Source: Byssovorax sp. | GTDB taxonomy: Bacteria > Myxococcota_A > Polyangia > Polyangiales > Polyangiaceae | Direction of reading: 5' to 3' | NCBI GenBank assembly: GCA_025362495.1 | Contig: JANYGI010000033.1 | Location: forward strand, 1-41,495 | DNA length: 41,495 bases | In this document: positions 3,201 through 19,763 of the stretch, piece by piece | Position numbering within the stretch: the stretch's first letter is position 1 | How the letters are laid out: every line of letters begins with the position of its first letter | Notes under the pieces: generated by a model | Seen by the model: the letters and a program-made list of their open reading frames with translations, nothing else | Database searches by the model: none | What the model was told of the DNA's origin: nothing | Translations under genes and position numbers: made by a program

Positions 3201-5960
3201 ATGCGACCCTTCCTGATCGCCCTCGCTCCGGTCCTCTATCTCCTCGGCTGCGGCAGCGATCCCGCGACATCGAGCGCAGGCGCCAGCAGCGCCAGCGGCA
3301 GCGGGACCGGGGGAGGCCCGGACATCGACACGTTCCTCTCGGCGCCCGCGTCGTGCGCCTACACCTGCCCGAGCGACGGTTGCGCCGAGGCGACGACGCC
3401 CTATGCGTGCCCCGCGCTCGGCGCCTGGGCCAGCATCCCGCACCTCGACGCCTGCGCGACCTGGGACGGGTCGTATCCAGTGCCGGTGAAGGGAGCCTGC
3501 ACCGCGTCGGCGCCCACGGGCGAGGCCCTCAAGACGCCGGGTGTCGACAGCGCCGATCCGGGGCTGCGCGTCCTGCCCGACGGTCGCAAGAACCGACCGG
3601 CGGGCGCCGAGTGGGCCTTCAACGAGGCCGATTTCCTCGGCGGCAACACCAGCGCGATTGCCCGCGTGCCCGGGACTTCGTACGTGCTCACGGTCGATAC
3701 CGGTCCTGACGATCACGCGGTGCGCGCCGTCGATACGACCCTGATCGGCTCGGGTAACCCGGTGACGGCGGCGATCAAGTTCGCGCCGCCTTCCTACCTG
3801 AACAGCGGTATTGCGGTCACGTCCCAGGGCCGCGTGTACGTGGCCACCGGGTTCGGCGTCGTTCAGGCGCTCACGTTCGACCCCGCCAAAGGCACCCTCG
3901 CTCGGACGGACACCGACTCTCTCCCCCTGCCGACGAACGCCGACGGCAAGCCCTGGTATGCCTCCGGCGTCGCCGTGAGCCCGGACGGGAAGCGCCTCGT
4001 CGTCTCGTCCGTCAACCGGTCGCAGCTGCTGGTCTTCGACGTCGACACGGCCTCTCCGACGTACAAATCCTCGCTCGGCGCCGCCGATCTCGGCAGCAAA
4101 GACACCTTCGGGGTCTACATCGATCCGCTCGACGCGCAGGGCTCGCGCGCCTACGTCCCGGTGTGGGGCGGGAAGGTCGTCCTCGAGATCAACCTCGATG
4201 ATCCGGCGAAGCCGAAGGTCGCCCGCAGCTTCGCGACCGACCGCAACCCGCAAGGGATAGCCTTCCTCGACGCCCGCTGGATGGCCGTCGCCAACGACTT
4301 CGGCGAGACGATCTCGCTCGTCGATCGGGTGACCGGCGAGGCCACGTCGGTGCCCGTCGACTTCGAGCCCGGCCGCAAAGGACTCGATGTCTCGCAGCTT
4401 GCTTACGACGTGGGATCATCGCGGCTCTACGCGCTCCTCGCCGGCATCAACGCCGTCGGCGCCTACGACGTCGATCTCACCGCGACCCCGCCGACGCTCA
4501 CGCCCGCAGGGCGCCTGTCGACCTCGTGGTGGCCGAGCGGCATCGTCGTCGCGCCCGATGGAGCCTTGACGGTGACGAACCTGCGCGGCCACCCGCTCGG
4601 GCCGGAGCCGGCCGACACCCTCGACGGCGACGGCCCCAGCGGCCACACGCGCATGCGCGGGAGCGTAGAGCAGATCCCTGCGCCGACGGCGGCCGATCTC
4701 GCGGCCGGCGCCACGGAGACCACAGCGGCGGTGGCCGTCGGCGACGAGGCTGGCTATCCGAAGGTGACGTGTCCAGGCAAGGAGATGGACTTCCCCGTCC
4801 CCCCCACCAACACCATGGGCCCTTCGCCCGTGATCAAGCACATCTTCTTCGTGGTGCGCGAAAACAAAACCTTCGACTCCCTCCTCGGCGACATCGCCGG
4901 CGTGAAGGGAGACCCGAAGTACACCATGAAGGCCACCACCGCCGAGATGGACCAGGTCTGGACCAACTTCCGCGATCTCGCGCGGGGCTTCACCGTGGCC
5001 GACAACTTCTACAACCTCGCCGTGCAGTCGACCCAGGGTCACCAGTGGACGACGTACGGCCGCGCCACCGACTTCTGCGAGCGCACCTGGAGCGCCGATC
5101 TCCGCGCCATCCCGCTCTGCGGCGTCGGCGACATCGGGCGCCCCGAGGAGGGCTCGCTCTTCGAGTGGCTCGGCGCGCACGACGTCGTCTATGACATCCT
5201 CGGCGAGATCGTCGGTAACCCCGCCGAGACCCCGGCGGGCCACAACCCCATCGACATCCACTATCCCGGCGGCCCCGTACAGAACATCCCGTACAACGAC
5301 GACGAGAAGGCCTGTTACACGGCGGGGAGGCTCCGCGTCGCCTGCGATCTCGGGACGTTCACCTACCTGACGTTGCCGAACGATCACACCATCGGCGTCT
5401 CGCCGGAGAACCCGACCCCCGAGACGATGTGCTCCATCAACGACGAGGCCACCGGGATGCTGATCGACGCCATCGCGCACAGCCCGATCTGGGCCTCGTC
5501 GCTCATCGTGGTGACGGAAGATGATCCCCAGTCCGGCGGGGATCACGTCGACTATCACCGCACGCCGCTGGTGCTGATTTCCCCGTGGGTGAAGCGCGGT
5601 TACGTCAGCCGCACGCACATCGACGTCCCCTCGCTCCACAAGCTCTTCGCCCACGTGCTCGGGCTCCCCTATCCCAACCTGCTGGTCGAGAAGGCCGGCT
5701 TGCCGCTCGACGCGTTCACCGGCACCCCGGACTACACTCCCTACGTCGCCAAGCCGCACGCCTGGCCCATCGGCTGCGGCACCGCGGCGAGCGGCGCCGA
5801 GAAGCGCCTCACCGACTCGTGGGATTTCTCCGAGCCCGACGAGCAGCCGGGCCTGGGAGAACAAGTGACGCGGTGGATGCGCGGCAAGCAGCTCGAGAAG
5901 CTCTCGCCGCGCCAGGAGGCCGAGATCGAAGCGCGAAAGGCGCACGACAGCGACGATTGA
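3201..5960 (+). CDS. YncE-like beta-propeller / phosphoesterase (PF04185-like) lipoprotein
   Basis: A 919-aa lipoprotein; the signal peptide ends LYLLGC, with Cys17 as the lipid site, followed by a Ser/Ala/Gly linker. Residues roughly 130-480 form a YncE/YVTN-type beta-propeller, with blade-like strings such as GVAVSPDGKRLVVSS and GIVVAPDGALTV. From about residue 545 comes a phosphoesterase/alkaline phosphatase-superfamily domain: IKHIFFVVRENKTFDSLLG supplies the family start with the ENKT nucleophile region, and SSLIVVTEDDPQSGGDHVDYH supplies metal-ligand Asp and His residues near residues 770-790. This is the same family as bacterial acid phosphatases and phospholipase C-like enzymes. The propeller fused in front probably positions the enzyme or binds a ligand. 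It acts in the periplasm or at the outer surface. The substrate is not predictable. The gene ends 30 bp before the convergent katG. Confidence 0.9.
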   Translation: MRPFLIALAPVLYLLGCGSDPATSSAGASSASGSGTGGGPDIDTFLSAPASCAYTCPSDGCAEATTPYACPALGAWASIPHLDACATWDGSYPVPVKGACTASAPTGEALKTPGVDSADPGLRVLPDGRKNRPAGAEWAFNEADFLGGNTSAIARVPGTSYVLTVDTGPDDHAVRAVDTTLIGSGNPVTAAIKFAPPSYLNSGIAVTSQGRVYVATGFGVVQALTFDPAKGTLARTDTDSLPLPTNADGKPWYASGVAVSPDGKRLVVSSVNRSQLLVFDVDTASPTYKSSLGAADLGSKDTFGVYIDPLDAQGSRAYVPVWGGKVVLEINLDDPAKPKVARSFATDRNPQGIAFLDARWMAVANDFGETISLVDRVTGEATSVPVDFEPGRKGLDVSQLAYDVGSSRLYALLAGINAVGAYDVDLTATPPTLTPAGRLSTSWWPSGIVVAPDGALTVTNLRGHPLGPEPADTLDGDGPSGHTRMRGSVEQIPAPTAADLAAGATETTAAVAVGDEAGYPKVTCPGKEMDFPVPPTNTMGPSPVIKHIFFVVRENKTFDSLLGDIAGVKGDPKYTMKATTAEMDQVWTNFRDLARGFTVADNFYNLAVQSTQGHQWTTYGRATDFCERTWSADLRAIPLCGVGDIGRPEEGSLFEWLGAHDVVYDILGEIVGNPAETPAGHNPIDIHYPGGPVQNIPYNDDEKACYTAGRLRVACDLGTFTYLTLPNDHTIGVSPENPTPETMCSINDEATGMLIDAIAHSPIWASSLIVVTEDDPQSGGDHVDYHRTPLVLISPWVKRGYVSRTHIDVPSLHKLFAHVLGLPYPNLLVEKAGLPLDAFTGTPDYTPYVAKPHAWPIGCGTAASGAEKRLTDSWDFSEPDEQPGLGEQVTRWMRGKQLEKLSPRQEAEIEARKAHDSDD

Positions 5961-11691: not shown

Positions 11692-12948
11692 TCAGCGCGA
11701 GATGGCGATACCACCGCTCTCGGCGGCGAGGGCGCGCATCAGCGGGCGATCCTGATCGGCGCCGACGCCGACGGTGTCGAAGCGAACGCCGTTGCGGATC
11801 TGGGCGCGGGCCTCGGCGTAGAGCTGCTGTCCGTCGCCGTCGACGTTGGCGAGGCCGTCGGAGAGGAACACCACGCGACGCGGGTGGCTGGCATACGCCG
11901 AGCGCAGCGCGGGGACCGCCGCCGTCATCCCGTCGGGCGAGATGCTCTGAACGAAGACCATGGATCCGACGCGGGTGAGGGCGTTGAGCGACACGAGCGA
12001 GGGAGAGAGCGCCGCGACGGTGCTGCCGAAGAAGACGACGTTGTAGCGCGTCCCGTCGGGGAGCGCCGCGATGGCGCCGGTGAGCTCGGCCTTGGCGATG
12101 TCGAGCTTGGTTTGTCGCGCGGTGAACGTGTTTTGCGCGAGCCCGGGGAGCCCCGCGAACACCGCCGACGCCGAGCCGAGCTGGTTTGCGCTGGTCGGGA
12201 ACGTGAAGCCGGCGAAGGCGCGAGTCCCCGCGGCGGTGAGGGCCGAGAGCGTGACCGCGGGGCTGACGAAGCCCATGGGAGCACCGGAGTCGGCCTCGGT
12301 CATCGAGCCGGAGCGATCGAGGACGAAGACCACGTCCTGCGCGTTCTCGAGCGGAACACCGTAGAACGCCGGCGCGGGCCGCCACGGCTGCGGGCACGGC
12401 GCCGCAGAGGGCGTCTCGTGATAGCCAGTGTACTGGATCTGCGTTTGCGCGCTGGCCTGCGCCTGCGTCTGCGTCGACGTGCTGGCCTGAGCCTGCGCGT
12501 TGGCCTGCGCCTGAGCCTTCGCGTTCGCCTGCGCCTGCGCACTGGCCCAGGCCTGCGCGTTGGCCTGCGCCTGCGCATTGGCTTGCGCTTGCGCGTTAGC
12601 CTGCGCTTGCGCGTTAGCCTGCGCCTGCGCATTGATCTGAGCTTGCGAGTTGGCCTGTGCTTGCGCCTGGGCCTTGGCATTGGCCTGCGCCTGCGCATTG
12701 GCCTGCGCCTGCGCTTGCGCCTTCGCGTTGGCCTGCGCCTGGGAGTTGGCCTCGGCCTGCGCGCTCGCAGACGTGTTGCCGTAGGCGTGAACACTCACGC
12801 TCGGAGAAGGCAGCAAGACAGCGACAGAGGGATACGACGTCGAGAAGTGAGCCGAGCCTCCGAGCTTGGCAGCGCACCCGGTGGAGCCGAGCGCGAGGGT
12901 GGTGAGGGTAAGAGCAAGGGGAGCCGAGGAACGAAGAATAGAAAGCAT
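11692..12948 (-). CDS. von Willebrand factor A lipoprotein with Ala/Gln/Asn repeat stalk
   Basis: A 418-aa lipoprotein. The start at 12948 gives a clean signal peptide ending ALGSTGC, with GGAGG twelve bases upstream; the frame is open further to 13020 but adds only an Arg-rich leader. About residues 60-170 are a low-complexity stretch of alternating Ala with Gln, Asn or Lys (units like AQAQANAQ). A Pro-rich linker follows, then a vWA domain from about residue 205. Its MIDAS motif is intact: [15 protein letters not shown] supplies DxSxS, and [15 protein letters not shown] carries the later acidic residues. vWA domains bind metal and mediate protein contacts. The repeat likely acts as a stalk that projects the domain from the membrane, which is inference. 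It is convergent with the cytochrome gene and divergent from the next gene. Confidence 0.88.
12436..12775 (-). repeat. Low-complexity coding repeat (Ala/Gln/Asn/Lys), units of 6-12 bp
   Basis: An imperfect array of short units such as GCCTGCGCCTGCGCATTG (plus strand) inside the vWA lipoprotein gene. It encodes about 110 residues that alternate Ala with Gln, Asn or Lys. Reading frame is kept throughout, so the array changes only in multiples of three. Such arrays are prone to slippage and may differ between strains. Confidence 0.9.
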
Positions 12949-13097
12949 GGCGGGGCGTAACCTCCGTGGTGTGAGCATCGCCCTCAGCACCGACCGTGCC
13001 ACGGTAAATTTGCCGAGCAATCAAGATCAACCCGTCGACGGCGTGAATGGCGGTTGACGGTATCCCGCGGACGCGAAAGCCGCGTAACATCGGACGC

Positions 13098-14111
13098 ATG
13101 AGTGAGAAACGGCTGTCGCATCCGCTCGCCTCGGCGTCACTCGCGGCGTTGCTCGCGGCCCTCGTCGGCGCCGCGATTCCCTTCGTCGCGTGCAGTGGAG
13201 CAGACACGGCGCCGGCCGACGCCGGGTCCGACGCCCCGACGAGCGACGGCGACCTGCCCGGGGACGACGCCGGAGATGCCATGGCGCCCACCGACGCCGG
13301 TGACGCGGGCGACCCCGCCGACGCGATGCCGGATGCGATGGACGACGGCGACGCCGCCGCCGAGGCGGGGCGCGATCTCTCGAACGACGCGACGAAGTTC
13401 TTCGGCGACAGCCGCTGTGCGCAGGCCAGCGTCCAGCTCTGCGAGGACTTCGAGAGCGGCAAGCTCGACACCACGACGTGGACCGTCACCGGCGACAAGC
13501 CCGTGGTCGACGGTTTGCAGCACGCGCGCGGCAACAAGGCACTTCACATCACCAAGGTCGGCAACGGCGCCTCGTACATCAAGGAGACGAAGACCTTCCC
13601 CGCGACCAACAACACCTATTTTGGTCGCATGTTCGTGTACTTCGAGTCGCTCCCGATAGCGCCGATGCCCTACGCTCACTGGACGTTCGCGGCCGCCTCG
13701 GGCACGGGCGCGAACGGGCAAATCCGGCTGAGCGGGCAGCTCTCGAAGGGCCTCAACCACTTTGGCGTCGGGACCGACACCGGCACGAACGACGCCGGCA
13801 GCGGCGACTGGACCAGCTCCGACAAGGATCCGAACGGCATGCCCGACGCCGTCCCGCTGAAGAAGTGGCTGTGCATCGAGTGGATGCACAAGGGCGACAC
13901 CAGCGAGACGCGGTTCTACCGGGACGCGACCGAGCACCCCTCGCTCTACACCTCGGAGACGAAGCACGGCGGCAACACGAACCCGTACACCCTGCCCACC
14001 TTCACGAACGTGTGGATGGGCTGGCAGGAGTACCAGATGAGCACCGAGACGTTCGAGATGTGGATTGACGAGATCGCGATCGACAAGGAGCGGATTGGCT
14101 GCATCCTCTGA
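13098..14111 (+). CDS. Lipoprotein with concanavalin A-like (polysaccharide-lyase/Cip1-like) domain
   Basis: A 337-aa lipoprotein. The ATG at 13098 starts a signal peptide ending AIPFVAC. About 70 residues of Asp/Ala/Gly-rich linker with repeated DAGD strings follow, then a single domain from about residue 105: LCEDFESGKLDTTTWTV, later YFGRMFVYFESLP, WLCIEWMHKGD and FEMWIDEIAID. This strand pattern is that of jelly-roll lectin/glucanase folds such as heparin lyase-like and Cip1-like proteins, where the CxDFEsG start and the WxxxE and WiDe strands recur. It likely binds or cleaves a polysaccharide outside the cell; catalytic residues cannot be assigned by eye. It is divergent from the vWA gene. 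The stop codon lies inside the first copy of a 13-bp tandem repeat. Confidence 0.85.
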   Translation: MSEKRLSHPLASASLAALLAALVGAAIPFVACSGADTAPADAGSDAPTSDGDLPGDDAGDAMAPTDAGDAGDPADAMPDAMDDGDAAAEAGRDLSNDATKFFGDSRCAQASVQLCEDFESGKLDTTTWTVTGDKPVVDGLQHARGNKALHITKVGNGASYIKETKTFPATNNTYFGRMFVYFESLPIAPMPYAHWTFAAASGTGANGQIRLSGQLSKGLNHFGVGTDTGTNDAGSGDWTSSDKDPNGMPDAVPLKKWLCIEWMHKGDTSETRFYRDATEHPSLYTSETKHGGNTNPYTLPTFTNVWMGWQEYQMSTETFEMWIDEIAIDKERIGCIL

Positions 14112-14141
14112 TCAGGGCCTCTGATCAGGGCCTCTGATCGG
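14105..14141 (+). repeat. 13-bp tandem repeat, 2.8 copies
   Basis: Two perfect copies of CCTCTGATCAGGG are followed by an 11-base third copy, CCTCTGATCGG. The array begins at the 3' end of the jelly-roll gene and includes its TGA stop. Each full unit contains the palindrome TGATCA. Confidence 0.9.
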
Positions 14142-14190
14142 TGAGGTCCCCGAAGCTCGCCACCGGCCTGCGGCGCCGGTGGCGGAACGG

Positions 14191-14268
14191 CTACGGAGCG
14201 CACTTGTGGACGGAGCAGGCTTTGCCCTTGGCGGTGCAGTCGTTGGTCTCCTTCGCGGTGCAGCCGTT
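14191..14268. repeat. 78-bp inverted repeat, left arm
   Basis: Reverse complement of 15399-15476 with three mismatches in 78 bases. The two arms flank nearly all of the Cys-repeat lipoprotein gene. Confidence 0.93.
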
Positions 14269-14313
14269 CCGCGCGGGCAAAGCGCCGACATTTCCGTCGG
14301 GTATCTGGAGCAT
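14191..14313 (-). pseudogene. Inverted relic of the 3' end of the Cys-repeat lipoprotein gene
   Basis: On the minus strand, 14268-14191 reproduces the last 78 bases of the neighbouring gene (15399-15476), including the TAG stop, with 75 of 78 identical. All three differences are synonymous, so the encoded 25 residues (NGCTAKETNDC to HKCAP) are the same. The frame opens at an ATG at 14313, giving a 40-residue peptide. The first 15 residues do not match the parent gene, and no signal peptide is present. It is best read as the remnant of a second, oppositely oriented paralogue. It could instead be a structured element in the leader of the 14316 gene. Confidence 0.6.
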
Positions 14314-14315
14314 TC

Positions 14316-15476
14316 ATGTCGACGAGCATCCGCCGCGCCTTGACGCGACTCTGGCCCCTCCCCCTCGTCGCTCTCTCGCTCGTCGCGCTCGGGTGCGGAG
14401 CCATCGAGTCGACGGGCGACCCCGAGACCGCCTCGAGCTTCGACGACGCGCTCACCGGCAACCAGAAGCGCGCGGTGTGCGACCACATCAAGACCGTCGC
14501 CGGCAACCACGGCATCACCAATCCCCTGATCGTGTCGGGCGTCCCCAACACCGAGACTGGCCTCGTCCAGTGCTGGAAAGACGCTCAGTGGGCCTGCCAG
14601 GGGCCGTACTCGAACTACTGCGGTGGCCCGGTGATCCCCGGCTCCGCCGACGGCCCGTGCGCCCAGCAGCAGGGCGGCCTCGCCATGTACCAGTTCGACG
14701 CAGGCACGTACGCCCAGACGCTCGCCGCGTACGGTGGGGCCATCGTCGAGCTCGACGGCGCCATCGATCAGGGCATCAACACCATCGTCCAGAAGGTGTG
14801 GAGCTGCTCGGCGAGCCCGCACTTCAACAGCCAGGGTGAGGTCATTGCCTGGATGAACGCGGCGAAGCCCGGCACCGCCAGCTACGAGACGTTCCTCTCG
14901 GTGATGGCCCAGTGTTACAATGGCTGTCAGCCCGGGTGGAGCTGCTACGAGCCGATGCGAGCGAGCTACCGCGCCGGCGCGCAAACGCTCCTCGACGCCT
15001 TCGGCACCGATTGCTGGTTCGGCGGGGCAGTCGGCCCGAGCGGATGCACGTCGCAGGAGACGAGCAACGCCGCCCAGTTCGGCTGCGCGTGCGTGAACCA
15101 TCAGGCCAACGGTGGGTATTGCGCCGGTACCGGCTGCACGTCCCAGGAGACGAGCAACGCGGGGCAATTCGGCTGCTCGTGCGTCGATCATCAGGGCAAC
15201 GGCGGCTTCTGCCCCGGCACCGGCTGCACCGCGAAGGAGACCAACGACGCCGCGCAATTCGGCTGCTCGTGCGTCGACCACGCGGGCAATGGCGGCTTCT
15301 GCCCGGGCACCGGCTGCACCGCGAAGGAGACCAACGACGCGGCGCAGTTCGGCTGTGGCTGCGTCGATCACAAGGCCGCGGGCGGCTTCTGCGCCGGCAA
15401 CGGCTGCACCGCGAAGGAGACCAACGATTGCACCGCCAAGGGCAAAGCCTGCTCGGTGCACAAGTGCGCTCCGTAG
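14316..15476 (+). CDS. Lipoprotein with C-terminal Cys-rich 30-residue repeats
   Basis: A 386-aa lipoprotein; GGAG precedes the ATG, and the signal peptide ends LVALGC (Cys27). Residues about 50-235 form a globular domain that begins with NQKRAVCDHIKTVAGNHG and contains QWACQGPYSNYCGG, QQGGLAMYQFDAGTY and a helical second half. The glycine and aromatic pattern vaguely resembles lysozyme-like or endolysin domains, but I cannot assign it. From residue about 243 come four full copies and one partial copy of a 30-residue unit of the type GCTxxETxxAAQFGCxCVDH followed by GGFCxGT, with conserved cysteines probably forming disulphides. The protein ends in a Cys-rich tail (CSVHKCAP). The repeats may bind a wall or surface ligand. 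The last 78 bases recur inverted upstream of the gene. A strong hairpin follows the stop. Confidence 0.87.
   Translation: MSTSIRRALTRLWPLPLVALSLVALGCGAIESTGDPETASSFDDALTGNQKRAVCDHIKTVAGNHGITNPLIVSGVPNTETGLVQCWKDAQWACQGPYSNYCGGPVIPGSADGPCAQQQGGLAMYQFDAGTYAQTLAAYGGAIVELDGAIDQGINTIVQKVWSCSASPHFNSQGEVIAWMNAAKPGTASYETFLSVMAQCYNGCQPGWSCYEPMRASYRAGAQTLLDAFGTDCWFGGAVGPSGCTSQETSNAAQFGCACVNHQANGGYCAGTGCTSQETSNAGQFGCSCVDHQGNGGFCPGTGCTAKETNDAAQFGCSCVDHAGNGGFCPGTGCTAKETNDAAQFGCGCVDHKAAGGFCAGNGCTAKETNDCTAKGKACSVHKCAP
15042..15476 (+). repeat. 90-bp coding tandem repeat, about 4.8 copies
   Basis: Units begin at 15042, 15132, 15222, 15312 and 15402 (the last partial). Each encodes one Cys-rich 30-residue repeat. 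Copies three and four are nearly identical at the DNA level, which suggests recent duplication or conversion. Confidence 0.93.
15399..15476. repeat. 78-bp inverted repeat, right arm
   Basis: This is the 3' end of the Cys-repeat lipoprotein gene, up to and including the stop. It is present inverted at 14191-14268 with 75 of 78 identities. Confidence 0.93.
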
Positions 15477-15499
15477 CGCGAGCGCATCCGGGTAGGGCA

Positions 15500-15540
15500 G
15501 CGCTTCGAGGGTGACCGAGGCGCGGTCAACCTCGCAGCGC
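15500..15540. terminator. Strong hairpin between convergent genes, probable bidirectional terminator
   Basis: An 18-base stem (16 of 18 paired: GCGCTTCGAGGGTGACCG against CGGTCAACCTCGCAGCGC) has a five-base loop. It lies between the stop at 15476 (plus) and the stop at 15550 (minus). There is no T-tract, so it may act with Rho or as an mRNA 3'-end stabiliser. Confidence 0.6.
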
Positions 15541-15549
15541 GCGCCCAGG

Positions 15550-17304
15550 TCAAACCGAGCGGCGACGACGCTTGCGGCTCGCCGCGACGATCACCGCGGT
15601 GGCCAGCACGCCGAGGCCGGACGCGTTCGAGGTCGCGCCTGCTTCACGGCAGCTACAGCTCGCGTCGGTCGGTGTGCCGACGCCGCTCCCTCCGCTGCCA
15701 CTGCCACCCTTGCCGCCGCCTCCGGCCGTCGTGAAAGCCCCACCGGCTCCCCCGCCTCCGCCGGCTCCGCCGGCGCCAGAGGGAGGGGACGTGAGATCGT
15801 CGTCGAGCAGATAGACCGCGGGCCCGGAGCCCTTCACCAGCATCGGCCGATCGCGGAGAGGCGGGCCGACGACGAAGGACTCGATATCTGCGACGGGGAC
15901 CTTGGTGACGGTCCCGAGATCGAGGTGCCAGCGCGCGGCGACCGTCGGATCCGGCACGTGGCGGCGGATCTTCCCGGTCGGGCCGTCGATCAACCACACC
16001 TCGGGCTGCCCTTCGCCCTGGAGGAGCTGCGGGGCGTCCGGGAGATCGATTGACATCTTCAGGGCCGCGAGCGCGGGATCCGTCACGCTGAGCTGGTCGG
16101 TGAAGGCCACGAACCCCCACGCCGTGAAGCTCATCGGATTGACCACGTGGCGCAGCACGCCCACGAGATCCGGCGTCGCGCATTTCATCGTTTGCGGGCT
16201 GCCGGAGAGCGTTTGATCGCGCGAACCGTTCTGGTCGAGGCCCTTCGCCACCACCAGGTGAGGAGCGCCGTCGAAGAGCGAGAACGGCGGGAGCAGCTCG
16301 AATCCGTGGTTGCAGGACTGGATCGCCGCGCAGAGATCGTCGCGATGAAGGCTGGCAGTGCCCTTCTCGGTGGGGATGCCCATCGCGCCCGGCGCCCCGT
16401 CGAAGCCGAGCACGACGTCGATCGGCGCGTCCGGCGCGTCGACGTCCTGGGCCCAGCCCTTGATCACGTCGCAGCCCGCAGAGTCGATGTAGCCGCGCGG
16501 CCGCCGGTCGTTGCACATCGTCGGCTCGCCGCCGCCCGTCGCGAAGACGCCGAGGTGGTTGTTGACCTGGCGCCCCGTGGAGATCACCTGTCCCAGGTTC
16601 TGCACGTAGAGCTGCGACGAGCCGCCGCCGTCCTGGTTCGTGGCATAGTCGATGGTGGGCGCGCCGGCCTCGGCCGCGCTCTGCTGGAGGCGCGTGACCA
16701 GGGTGGAGGCGCTGATCGAGCTCGTCGTCGACATCATGTAGAGCGTGCGGCGATCGGCGCTGGAGCCAATGGCGCTGCGGGCATGCGAGGTGTTGAGGAG
16801 CTGACCGTCGTTGGCGTCCGACCACGGACCGGTGGTGTTGCCTCCGCTGATGATCACGTTGTGACCGCCGACGATCTCGGTGACTCCCGCGAGGGGCGCC
16901 GCGCCGCCGCTGGGCTCGCCCTGGGCGATCCCGGGGCCAAACTGCCAGTAAGGCCTCCCCTCCTTCTGCTGAGCGTTCGCCGGCCAGTCCTCGCCGACGC
17001 CGCGGGCGCGGCCGACGACGTAGGTCCACCCGGGGAAGTCGAAGAAGTCGGCGTTCATGGCCGCTTGCACGCCGACGCCCTGCCCCCATTGCTGGGGAGT
17101 GCCCTTGCGCTCGGCATATTTGGTCGCGCGGATCGAGACCCCGTCGGCGCAGAGATCGACGATGATCATCGCGTCCTGGCCAGGGTGATTGACGAGCGTG
17201 AGGCCCGGGTGAGGGCTGGTCACGTCGGCTCGCGCGACGGGGCCCACCGCCGCGACGGCGAGCGTGGCGGCGAGGGCGGCGGCCCGGCGCGCGAGGGACG
17301 ACAT
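15550..17304 (-). CDS. Phosphodiester glycosidase (NAGPA/DUF2233) domain protein with MYXO-CTERM-like tail
   Basis: A 584-aa secreted protein. The start at 17304 shares one base with the stop of the upstream gene (TGATG), and the frame continues upstream only as a shadow of that gene. The signal peptide ends near GPVARA|DV without a lipobox. Residues about 25-300 form a NAGPA domain: VQAAMNADFFDFPG, ARSAIGSSADRRTLYM and the family hallmark NQDGGGSSQLYVQN (about residue 225). The family includes the mammalian uncovering enzyme that removes GlcNAc from mannose-6-phosphate diesters, and bacterial exopolysaccharide-associated proteins. The second half (about 300-520) has a bacterial Ig-like region (GYIDSAGCDVIKGWAQDVD). 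A Gly-rich linker, CSC, a hydrophobic segment GLGVLATAVIVAAS and RKRRRR end the protein. This resembles the myxobacterial MYXO-CTERM sorting signal, so surface anchoring is likely. Confidence 0.9.
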   Translation of the reverse strand: MSSLARRAAALAATLAVAAVGPVARADVTSPHPGLTLVNHPGQDAMIIVDLCADGVSIRATKYAERKGTPQQWGQGVGVQAAMNADFFDFPGWTYVVGRARGVGEDWPANAQQKEGRPYWQFGPGIAQGEPSGGAAPLAGVTEIVGGHNVIISGGNTTGPWSDANDGQLLNTSHARSAIGSSADRRTLYMMSTTSSISASTLVTRLQQSAAEAGAPTIDYATNQDGGGSSQLYVQNLGQVISTGRQVNNHLGVFATGGGEPTMCNDRRPRGYIDSAGCDVIKGWAQDVDAPDAPIDVVLGFDGAPGAMGIPTEKGTASLHRDDLCAAIQSCNHGFELLPPFSLFDGAPHLVVAKGLDQNGSRDQTLSGSPQTMKCATPDLVGVLRHVVNPMSFTAWGFVAFTDQLSVTDPALAALKMSIDLPDAPQLLQGEGQPEVWLIDGPTGKIRRHVPDPTVAARWHLDLGTVTKVPVADIESFVVGPPLRDRPMLVKGSGPAVYLLDDDLTSPPSGAGGAGGGGGAGGAFTTAGGGGKGGSGSGGSGVGTPTDASCSCREAGATSNASGLGVLATAVIVAASRKRRRRSV

Positions 17305-19763
17305 CAGTTGATCCCCTTGGTGGCGCAGAAGCCGTTGATGCACACGTTGGTCGCGTCGCAGCAGTCGGCCGCGGTGCTGCACTTCTCCTGCGGGCCGGAG
17401 CACGAGCCGCTGAGGGGCGTATTCGAGCACACGAGCGCTCCCATCGGGCCGTTGGGCTCGCAGTAGCCGTTGCAGCACTGGTCGCCCGTCGCGCAGGTCT
17501 GACCATCGGCCTTGCACGGATCGAGGACCCAGAAGCCGCGCGAGTTCCCGGCGAGGATCTCCTGCGCAGGCAGATAGAAGGCCGGGTGGCTCGGATCGGT
17601 GCCGGGCGGCGCGCTGAGATCGATGGCCGCGACCCAGAGCTTCTTCACGGTGGCCTGGGCGAGATCCGTCGTGTCGTAGCCCGGAGGCCAGCTCTGCCAG
17701 GGGACAGCGTTGAGCTGGTTACCGTAGCTCCGACGGCTGGTGAACACCACCCAGGCGTACCCGCCGGCCGAGATCGGGAGCACCGTTGGCTCGTAGTTCA
17801 GGGTCGTGTCGTCTTGCCCGGCCTCACTGTACGAGCTCTGCGGATCGCTCGCGCCGGCGATACCGTGGTTGTTGGGGCCGACAGGCAGGTACGAGGCGCC
17901 GCCGCTCTTGCCGTTCAGCGTTTCCAGCGCCACCGGGCTCGGGCTCCCGCCGAGGGTCGTCCACCAGAGCTCGCTCCGGGCGCCGTTGCGCGTGACCATC
18001 ACCGAGTCGCTCTGGCTCGATCGAACCCCGGTCTCGAACAGGATACCGCTGTTGTCGGGGAGGAAGACAGGATAGCCGATCCGCTGCCCTGCGGCCGGCG
18101 TTTGCAGCGTCTGGAGGTTCGAGAAGGTGTGCGTCGTCGCGTCGTAGGCCGCGGCGACCAGGGGCCCTGACACGTTCTGGGTCTTGCCGGTCACGTCGAT
18201 GTAGGCGAGGAACTTGTCGTCCGGCGAATACGAGGGATAGCCCGCCGCGACGCCGGCCGGCAGGCCCGTCGACACGGCCGCTTGCGGCGCGGCGCTGAAC
18301 TGCCAGAACGAGCTCGTCGCCGACCCGTTGGAGCTGTTGAGGATGGCGGGGTTGGTCGACGAAGGGTCGATGGTGTTGGTCAGCGCGTAGGTGCCGTCGC
18401 CGACGAGGGCTGCCCAGCCGAACACGCCCTCTTGCGTGAGCTGGGCCGCCGAGCCCTGCACGTCGGCCGCGCTCAGATCGTAGAGGAAGGTGCGCCCGTT
18501 GCCCGGGTTCCCCTGCTCGGCCTGGGCGAGGAGGAACTGGCCGCGCGAAGAGACGGTGTGACAGACGCGACACCCGCTGTTGTCGGCCGGGTTCCCCTGG
18601 GCGTTGGTGGGGCTGTTCTGCCCGACGACGAGCTTCGGCGCGAGATCGCCCGAGCGCACGCCGAGGATCGCCGCGCCCACCGAGTGACCGGCCTTGTCGA
18701 GGCTCGCCCAGTTCTTGACGAGCTGCGTACCGTAGGAGTTGTAATACACGCTCCCGGTGAGCCGCGCGGGCGCGATCGTCCAGGTCTGGGAGATGGGCCC
18801 GTAGGACATGCCGTCCTTGGCGAGGGTGAGGCTGACCGTGAGCTGATCGGACTTCCCCCCGGCGGTGTTGGTGGCCATGTCCCAGATGTCCTGGGGGATG
18901 GGGTGACGGATGAATTTCCCGCCGGTCTGCCCGAGGATCGCCGGCTTGCCGAAGGTGCCAGTCCACGAGAACGATTTCGTCGTCGTCTCGAGCTTGATCT
19001 GGATGGCGTCGGCGTCGGCCGGGGCCCAGCTCCACATCAGGAGCGGAGCCAGCATGCCGCGCGGCCAGATCGTCTTGTCGTAGGGATAGAGCAGCGCCAG
19101 ATTCTGGGCCTTCCCATCGCCCGTCGGGGCCCCGAGCACCGTGAGCGTCGCCGGATCGACCGCGACGCCGAGGCCGTCGCCTCCCACGCCGCCGACCCCG
19201 CCTCCAGCCTTGAGATCGCCTGGAGTCGTGGGTATCTGCGCTTGCTCACCCGGGTTCGTCGGATCGGGCCCGTTCTGCGAGGCCGAGAGCTGCACGAAGA
19301 TCTGCCGCTGCACCGTCATCTTGTTGAGGCCGGCCTGGATCGTCACCATACCGCCCGTCGTCCCGGTCGGCGTGAACGCGGCCGTGCTCGACGGGCCCGC
19401 GGGGATCGTCCCGAGGTTGCCCTTGTCGAGGCCCCAGCCGGCGTTGGCCGGTTGACCGTCGAGAGTGGCAGTGTACTTCACCGTCGGCGCCGGCTGGCCG
19501 ACGACCATCATCAGCGTCTGCGGCGCGCTCGGCTCGACGTCGAATCCCTGCATCGTGGCGCCGCCCGCGCCCGTCGACGAGGTCACGAACGAGGGTTCAC
19601 CGCCGGCGCCGCCATGGCTACCCGTGCCTGTCGTCGTGGCGCCCGTGGGAGCGCCGCCCGCGCCCGTGGGAGTGCCGCTCCCCCCACCGCAGGCGGAGAC
19701 GCCCGTGGCCGCCGAGAGCGAGACGCCGAGAGCCAAGTACCAGCGCGACGAGCCTGTTCTCAT
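17304..19763 (-). CDS. Propeller lipoprotein with a single CXXCH heme site and Cys-rich tail
   Basis: An 819-aa lipoprotein. The ATG at 19763 starts a signal peptide ending AATGVSAC (Cys25) and lies two bases after the stop of a small upstream ORF. A Gly/Thr linker and an Ig-like segment (PAPTVKYTATLDGQPAN) come first. In the middle, residues 398-402 are CRVCH, a c-type heme attachment site, within SGCRVCHTVSSRG. From about residue 480 there are TolB/PD40-type blades (AGYPSYSPDDKFLAYIDV, IGYPVFLPDNSGILFETG). Residues about 748-819 form a Cys-rich region with CKADGQTCATGDQCCNGYC and CSTAADCCDATNVCINGFC, resembling small disulphide knot modules. It is translationally coupled to the NAGPA-domain gene. 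It probably acts at the cell surface as a redox-active or ligand-binding scaffold; the exact role is unknown. Confidence 0.88.
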   Translation of the reverse strand: MRTGSSRWYLALGVSLSAATGVSACGGGSGTPTGAGGAPTGATTTGTGSHGGAGGEPSFVTSSTGAGGATMQGFDVEPSAPQTLMMVVGQPAPTVKYTATLDGQPANAGWGLDKGNLGTIPAGPSSTAAFTPTGTTGGMVTIQAGLNKMTVQRQIFVQLSASQNGPDPTNPGEQAQIPTTPGDLKAGGGVGGVGGDGLGVAVDPATLTVLGAPTGDGKAQNLALLYPYDKTIWPRGMLAPLLMWSWAPADADAIQIKLETTTKSFSWTGTFGKPAILGQTGGKFIRHPIPQDIWDMATNTAGGKSDQLTVSLTLAKDGMSYGPISQTWTIAPARLTGSVYYNSYGTQLVKNWASLDKAGHSVGAAILGVRSGDLAPKLVVGQNSPTNAQGNPADNSGCRVCHTVSSRGQFLLAQAEQGNPGNGRTFLYDLSAADVQGSAAQLTQEGVFGWAALVGDGTYALTNTIDPSSTNPAILNSSNGSATSSFWQFSAAPQAAVSTGLPAGVAAGYPSYSPDDKFLAYIDVTGKTQNVSGPLVAAAYDATTHTFSNLQTLQTPAAGQRIGYPVFLPDNSGILFETGVRSSQSDSVMVTRNGARSELWWTTLGGSPSPVALETLNGKSGGASYLPVGPNNHGIAGASDPQSSYSEAGQDDTTLNYEPTVLPISAGGYAWVVFTSRRSYGNQLNAVPWQSWPPGYDTTDLAQATVKKLWVAAIDLSAPPGTDPSHPAFYLPAQEILAGNSRGFWVLDPCKADGQTCATGDQCCNGYCEPNGPMGALVCSNTPLSGSCSGPQEKCSTAADCCDATNVCINGFCATKGIN

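Follow-up and report, generated by a model that had tools for sequence, protein, structure and literature searches.

An inverted copy of a gene's own 3' end in front of its start in a Byssovorax sp. genome: a possible trace of a replication template switch

How can the last stretch of a gene come to lie backwards just in front of that gene's own start, and does it serve any purpose there? We address this question for a lipoprotein-like gene, here called B, in a window of 41,495 nt (by window we mean the whole stretch of DNA that was analysed), read on the forward strand of contig JANYGI010000033.1 of Byssovorax sp. (GCA_025362495.1).

The inverted copy and its rarity

Gene B (14316-15476, plus strand) encodes a 386-aa lipoprotein-like protein, with what we take to be a probable lipoprotein signal (lipobox). 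Its layout comprises an N domain (about residues 41-240) common to its relatives, four Cys modules of 30 residues each (R1-R4, at 15042-15401) and a shortened fifth module, R5, that carries the stop. What has been copied is this last Cys-rich module together with its stop: positions 14190-14268 of the minus strand are an inverted copy of 15399-15477 of the plus strand, identical at 76 of 79 bp (96.2%; 130 bits) with 0 indels, and the two arms are 1,130 bases apart. The initial annotation had described a reverse-complement match of 75/78 bases up to and including the stop (14191-14268 against 15399-15476), which is confirmed here, and a single matching base beyond the stop extends this core from 78 to 79 bp. 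The arms contain identical runs of 29 and 26 bp. The right copy is the intact 3' end of gene B, with its stop at 15474-15476. The left copy, by sequence comparison, preserves the reading frame and the stop over the copied stretch, and consists of the linker residue N, the terminal Cys module (peptide NGCTAKETNDCTAKGKACSVHKCAP), the stop and one further base. Codon comparison also bears out the earlier observation that the three differences are all synonymous in the frame of the Cys repeat: left and right read GAC/GAT at 15428, TCC/TCG at 15455 and GTC/GTG at 15458, and each change falls on a third position.

The inverted pair is beyond chance and looks unusual for this genome. Our same-genome sample comprised 120 stretches (2,013,194 bases, 12,413 of them N), none longer than 20 kb, to which the window was added, and every piece was compared with itself; it is a non-random sample, in which many contigs are represented by their first 20 kb and five by additional pieces. 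Among the 54 inverted matches found in these 2.01 Mb at E up to 0.001, the window's pair ranks second by score overall and first among pairs whose arms are at most 5 kb apart. Just one other inverted pair reaches both 60 bp and 88% identity: L143, on contig 67 of the same genome, which ranks first by score, is a 143-bp repeat at 97%, with arms at 3842-3984 and 12127-12269, 8.1 kb apart. One of its arms reaches the contig's last base; the repeat may represent a mobile element or a break in the assembly. Third in rank is a 97-bp pair at 87.6% (L123), with arms 4.8 kb apart and one arm at its contig's first base. The same sample contains 7 direct duplications that reach both 60 bp and 90% identity. 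A separate self-comparison of 28 loci, which include the window's own and two same-genome paralogue loci and some of which overlap, gave as the longest inverted matches besides the window's own 77 bp at 73% (L009) and 44 bp at 82% (L025).

One reading of such a pair is that two similar tails were misjoined during assembly. The genome is indeed a draft, of 240 contigs and 96.56% complete, and a paralogue of B on contig 15 is truncated by the contig start; however, three sites distinguish the two copies, neither of which is close to an end of the 41-kb contig, and we regard an artefact as improbable.

Ends of the copy and its possible origin

The outer end of the left copy is abrupt, its flank showing no extension of the likeness (1037 to 2000 of 2000 shuffles equal its score), and the inner end is abrupt at high identity. 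One end lies no more than 1 bp from the stop codon, the other no more than 3 bp from a module boundary. A repeat finder gives a 97-nt version of the repeat, in which eight mismatches are added to this core on the inner side. Set against the end of module 4, the inner flank does no better than shuffled flanks (215 to 2000 of 2000 shuffles equally good), but a longer homology is kept as a point in favour of a gene remnant (below). For the inner flank (14269-14298, minus strand), BLAST and shuffle controls leave a faint, borderline likeness to the end of Cys module 3: a gapped BLAST pair joins 14239-14295 with 15285-15338 (57 bp, 84%). When this flank was compared with all module ends, of which module 3 was the best, the score was not significant under strict gap costs, being matched by 608 of 1500 shuffles and 972 of 2144 real pieces of the window, and under lenient gap costs it was borderline, being reached by 25-65 of 1500 shuffles and 61-131 of 2144 window pieces (2-6%). 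Taken as 50 bases and set against 400 shuffles, it was equalled by 147 under strict scoring and by 2 and 7 under two lenient scorings. A local-alignment test was passed equally well by 509 of 2000 shuffles and by 687 of 1686 pieces of the window.

The two junctions of the left copy are themselves linked by a perfect 11-bp inverted repeat, GCGGAACGGCT/AGCCGTTCCGC, whose left arm (14182-14192, plus strand) crosses the outer junction and whose right arm (14262-14272, minus strand) crosses the inner one. This pattern was noticed after the fact; when other pairs of points equally far apart in the window served as a control, 2 of 13,599 were spanned likewise by an 11-bp repeat. A mobile unit bounded by terminal inverted repeats was rejected, as no target-site duplication was seen: by eye, the flanks TGGCGGAACG (14180-14189) and GCGAGCGCAT (15478-15487) share none of at least 2 bases.

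We favour a one-off local inverted duplication by replication template switch, to which we give about an even chance, because the 11-bp repeat spans both junctions and the arms are 1.1 kb apart. The nascent strand, on reaching about 14189, would have jumped within the same fork to the opposite strand at the 3' end of B (about 15477), and would then have copied the last 79 bases of B backwards, to 15399. A fold-back onto its own AACGGCT sequence would next have added CCGC before the strand rejoined its original template; the 11-bp repeat could be a trace of this folding back. Afterwards the intact gene would have acquired at least one change, and the left copy no more than two. In the passages concerned, PMC3161906 gives a fork size of 1.5 kb and suggests switching within a fork for some E. 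coli inversions, and the spacing of 1,130 bases, being below that size, fits such switching; two further papers describe template switching as producing reverse-complement copies (PMC8794818) and as acting between inverted repeats (PMC8604942). The inverted orientation and the abruptness of the outer end and, at high identity, of the inner end support a template switch, as does the rarity of such pairs, for no other with arms at most 5 kb apart reaches 60 bp and 88% in the 2.01 Mb sampled, L123 coming nearest. Against it stand the position of the ends near a stop and a module boundary, which an accident does not need, the fact that all three differences are synonymous, and the borderline likeness of the inner flank to module 3 under lenient gap costs, which would point to a longer and older copy. 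The late notice taken of the junction repeat also counts against it, and no genome with an empty ancestral site was found. We infer the mechanism and the order of its steps, and likewise that the left copy, just upstream of B, is probably non-functional.

Another reading, raised at first inspection beside an inversion or conversion event, is a lost head-on paralogue. In this reading a second B-like gene once lay upstream, either on the minus strand and head-to-head with B or in tandem and inverted afterwards through the 11-bp repeat; gene conversion with B would have kept its last module alike while most of the rest was deleted or decayed. The copy of one module plus its stop, with an intact frame and synonymous differences, agrees with this, as does the weak, borderline likeness between the adjoining 30 bases and the end of a module, but that likeness is gone under strict gap costs and in local alignment. 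A GC-rich hairpin lacking a T run is predicted in the gap between gene A and the left copy (14157-14185), five bases past the left copy's stop, a possible place for the terminator of a minus-strand gene. At the other end, the ATG of B lies just 47 bases from the copy, which speaks against a lost gene. An existing minus-strand frame of 40 codons contains the left copy, its ATG 3 bases from that of B, and was judged from its layout alone unlikely to be a gene.

The family to which B belongs has varying C-terminal parts, which also speaks for this reading. In the relatives search the full protein matches 15 of 59 genomes, its own counted, and the N domain in the matched loci then carries varying C-terminal parts. 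The closest relative found is the paralogue on contig 15 of the same genome (L023:1-954), 66% identical in the N domain, which has a B_lectin domain at its C-terminus and is cut by the contig start; in another genome (G029; L017, about 2176 onward) the N domain of B is fused to a region matching the C-terminal part of gene D, the neighbour of B. As the N domain precedes a B_lectin domain in one case and a gene D-like region in another, gene B is a member of a modular family, and this family is probably secreted. The N domain itself has no Pfam match above cut-off and no credible match among solved structures, and a single-sequence AlphaFold model was too poor for use (pLDDT 43); a conserved Glu and a GLGMFQF-type motif suggest, as we presume, a lysozyme-like fold.

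The tail is carried by this locus alone in the draft genome: it was not found elsewhere there, and neither of the other two N-domain copies found in the draft has it, which counts against a lost paralogue. Of the two proposals made at first inspection, an inversion-type duplication is supported; a minus-strand paralogue with this tail was not found in the draft genome. We consider a gene remnant possible, if on balance doubtful, and an ordinary mutational origin of one kind or the other, template switch or remnant, the most likely explanation of the copy.

Searches beyond this genome covered the protein, its modules and the surrounding region. None of the 58 relatives in the relatives search bears the same genus label, those found being too distant for the locus to be seen in them, and a scan of genome contigs with a single protein, from which records of the own genome were possibly left out, found no relative. 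A search with the upstream region gave matches in 30 of 108 family genomes, the own genome included; the matches outside it are short (about 25 to 70 bases, best E 5.5e-6) and do not show the locus itself. Matches to genes A and D, which flank B, are neighbours in 0 of the 13 other genomes that match both (family searches of 106 genomes each, many of them fragmented). Matches to the Cys modules occur in 4 of the 106 genomes searched in the family and 6 of the 183 in the order, own genome included. The loci of such matches in G028, G168 and G049 were compared for inverted repeats only, and a match in G031 (L039) was dropped as spurious, as it falls in a simple tandem repeat.

Selection, inversion and RNA pairing

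Do the synonymous differences show that the left copy was once selected as protein, as the initial annotation held? Random single changes in the 78-bp core are synonymous in 18-27% of cases, and if all changes had fallen on a neutral left copy the probability of three synonymous changes out of three would be 0.006-0.02. At 15428, R3, R4 and the left copy all read GAC and R5 reads GAT, and because of this agreement the change probably arose in the intact gene. For the remaining two differences the probability that both are synonymous is about 0.03-0.07. Selection filters whatever changes occur in the intact gene, and with one of the three probably placed there and the other two at these values, past selection on the left copy does not follow. 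When a gene and its inverted fragment differ only synonymously, the fragment need not have been under selection.

Selection on both tails would however be expected if B were an invertible gene, since either tail completes the same protein. Recombination between the tails would flip the whole of gene B and align it with gene D instead of gene A. Gene A (13047-14111, plus strand) is Cip1-like and polysaccharide-lyase-like, at 26.9 bits just under the Pfam cut-off of 27, and gene D (15550-17304, minus strand; the start is our choice, and the gene was searched as 15550-17253) encodes a NAGPA-domain protein and is convergent with B. Each orientation of B would be in line with one of these neighbours, recombination anywhere inside the 79 bp restores the full reading frame in either orientation, and the identical runs within the arms would suit it. 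On the other side, no recombinase or integrase domain was found among the 12 window proteins scanned, the assembled draft shows no opposite orientation, and the arms exceed the 10-40 nt given for invertons in a passage of PMC11892184. A second hairpin is predicted between gene B and the convergent gene D (15496-15545), and the hairpins on both sides may isolate B. A terminator scan that requires a T run lists neither this hairpin nor the one at 14157-14185. We hold an invertible gene to be very improbable. If true, the gene's tail would serve as a phase switch: B would flip between the transcription contexts on its two sides and remain functional, the repeats being its own last coding module.

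The remaining proposal concerns RNA. With the hairpin bounding it upstream and the ATG so close downstream, the left copy fills much of the space expected for the promoter and leader of B, and no sigma-70-like promoter was found in 14000-15700. The panhandle suggested at first inspection is energetically possible, given a transcription start upstream of the left copy: pairing of the arms gains about 114 kcal/mol over local folds, and the predicted fold of 14186-15560 pairs them. If the RNA were a selected element, its leader would begin upstream of the left copy, pair with the 3' coding end of B and control decay or translation. Yet such an energy follows from any inverted repeat of this kind, the region 14112-14330 has no exceptional stability by itself (z -1.70; equalled by 11 of 200 shuffles), no promoter of the type sought was found, and ribosomes would presumably clear the 3' arm. 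The panhandle is unsupported, and we attach little probability to a selected RNA element. In a scan of 13000-17600, a CPEB3-ribozyme-like Rfam match (14575-14640, minus strand; 19.8 bits against a cut-off of 35) was taken as chance.

Two further repeats lie on the gene A side of the window. At 14106-14131, across and just after the stop of gene A, CTCTGATCAGGGC stands in two tandem copies, with a predicted hairpin. At 12419-12802, within a minus-strand VWA-domain gene, a long tandem array of 12/18-bp units encodes an Ala-Gln-rich repeat.

Comparison with known systems

A literature search, not aimed at exactly this arrangement, found no published report of it. The locus resembles invertons in that an inverted partial copy of a gene's C-terminal end adjoins the gene. 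Shufflons of the hsdS or PilV type likewise have an inverted partial C-terminal copy beside the gene. Unlike in these systems, both tails here encode the same peptide, so that flipping yields no new protein, and no recombinase was found among the 12 window proteins scanned. With gene remnants left by partial duplication the locus shares a gene-end fragment within an intergenic stretch; here, in contrast, the fragment has the opposite orientation, and any further remnant is a borderline hint at most. From inverted duplications made by template switching, and from quasipalindrome mutations, the locus differs in its spacing, which at 1.1 kb is longer than in classic quasipalindrome events. The likeness lies in the short reverse-complement copy, its abrupt outer end and the inverted repeat at the junctions. 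If a template switch is indeed the origin, the locus is an example of how a coding fragment can land backwards upstream of its gene, with long complementary ends arising by accident.
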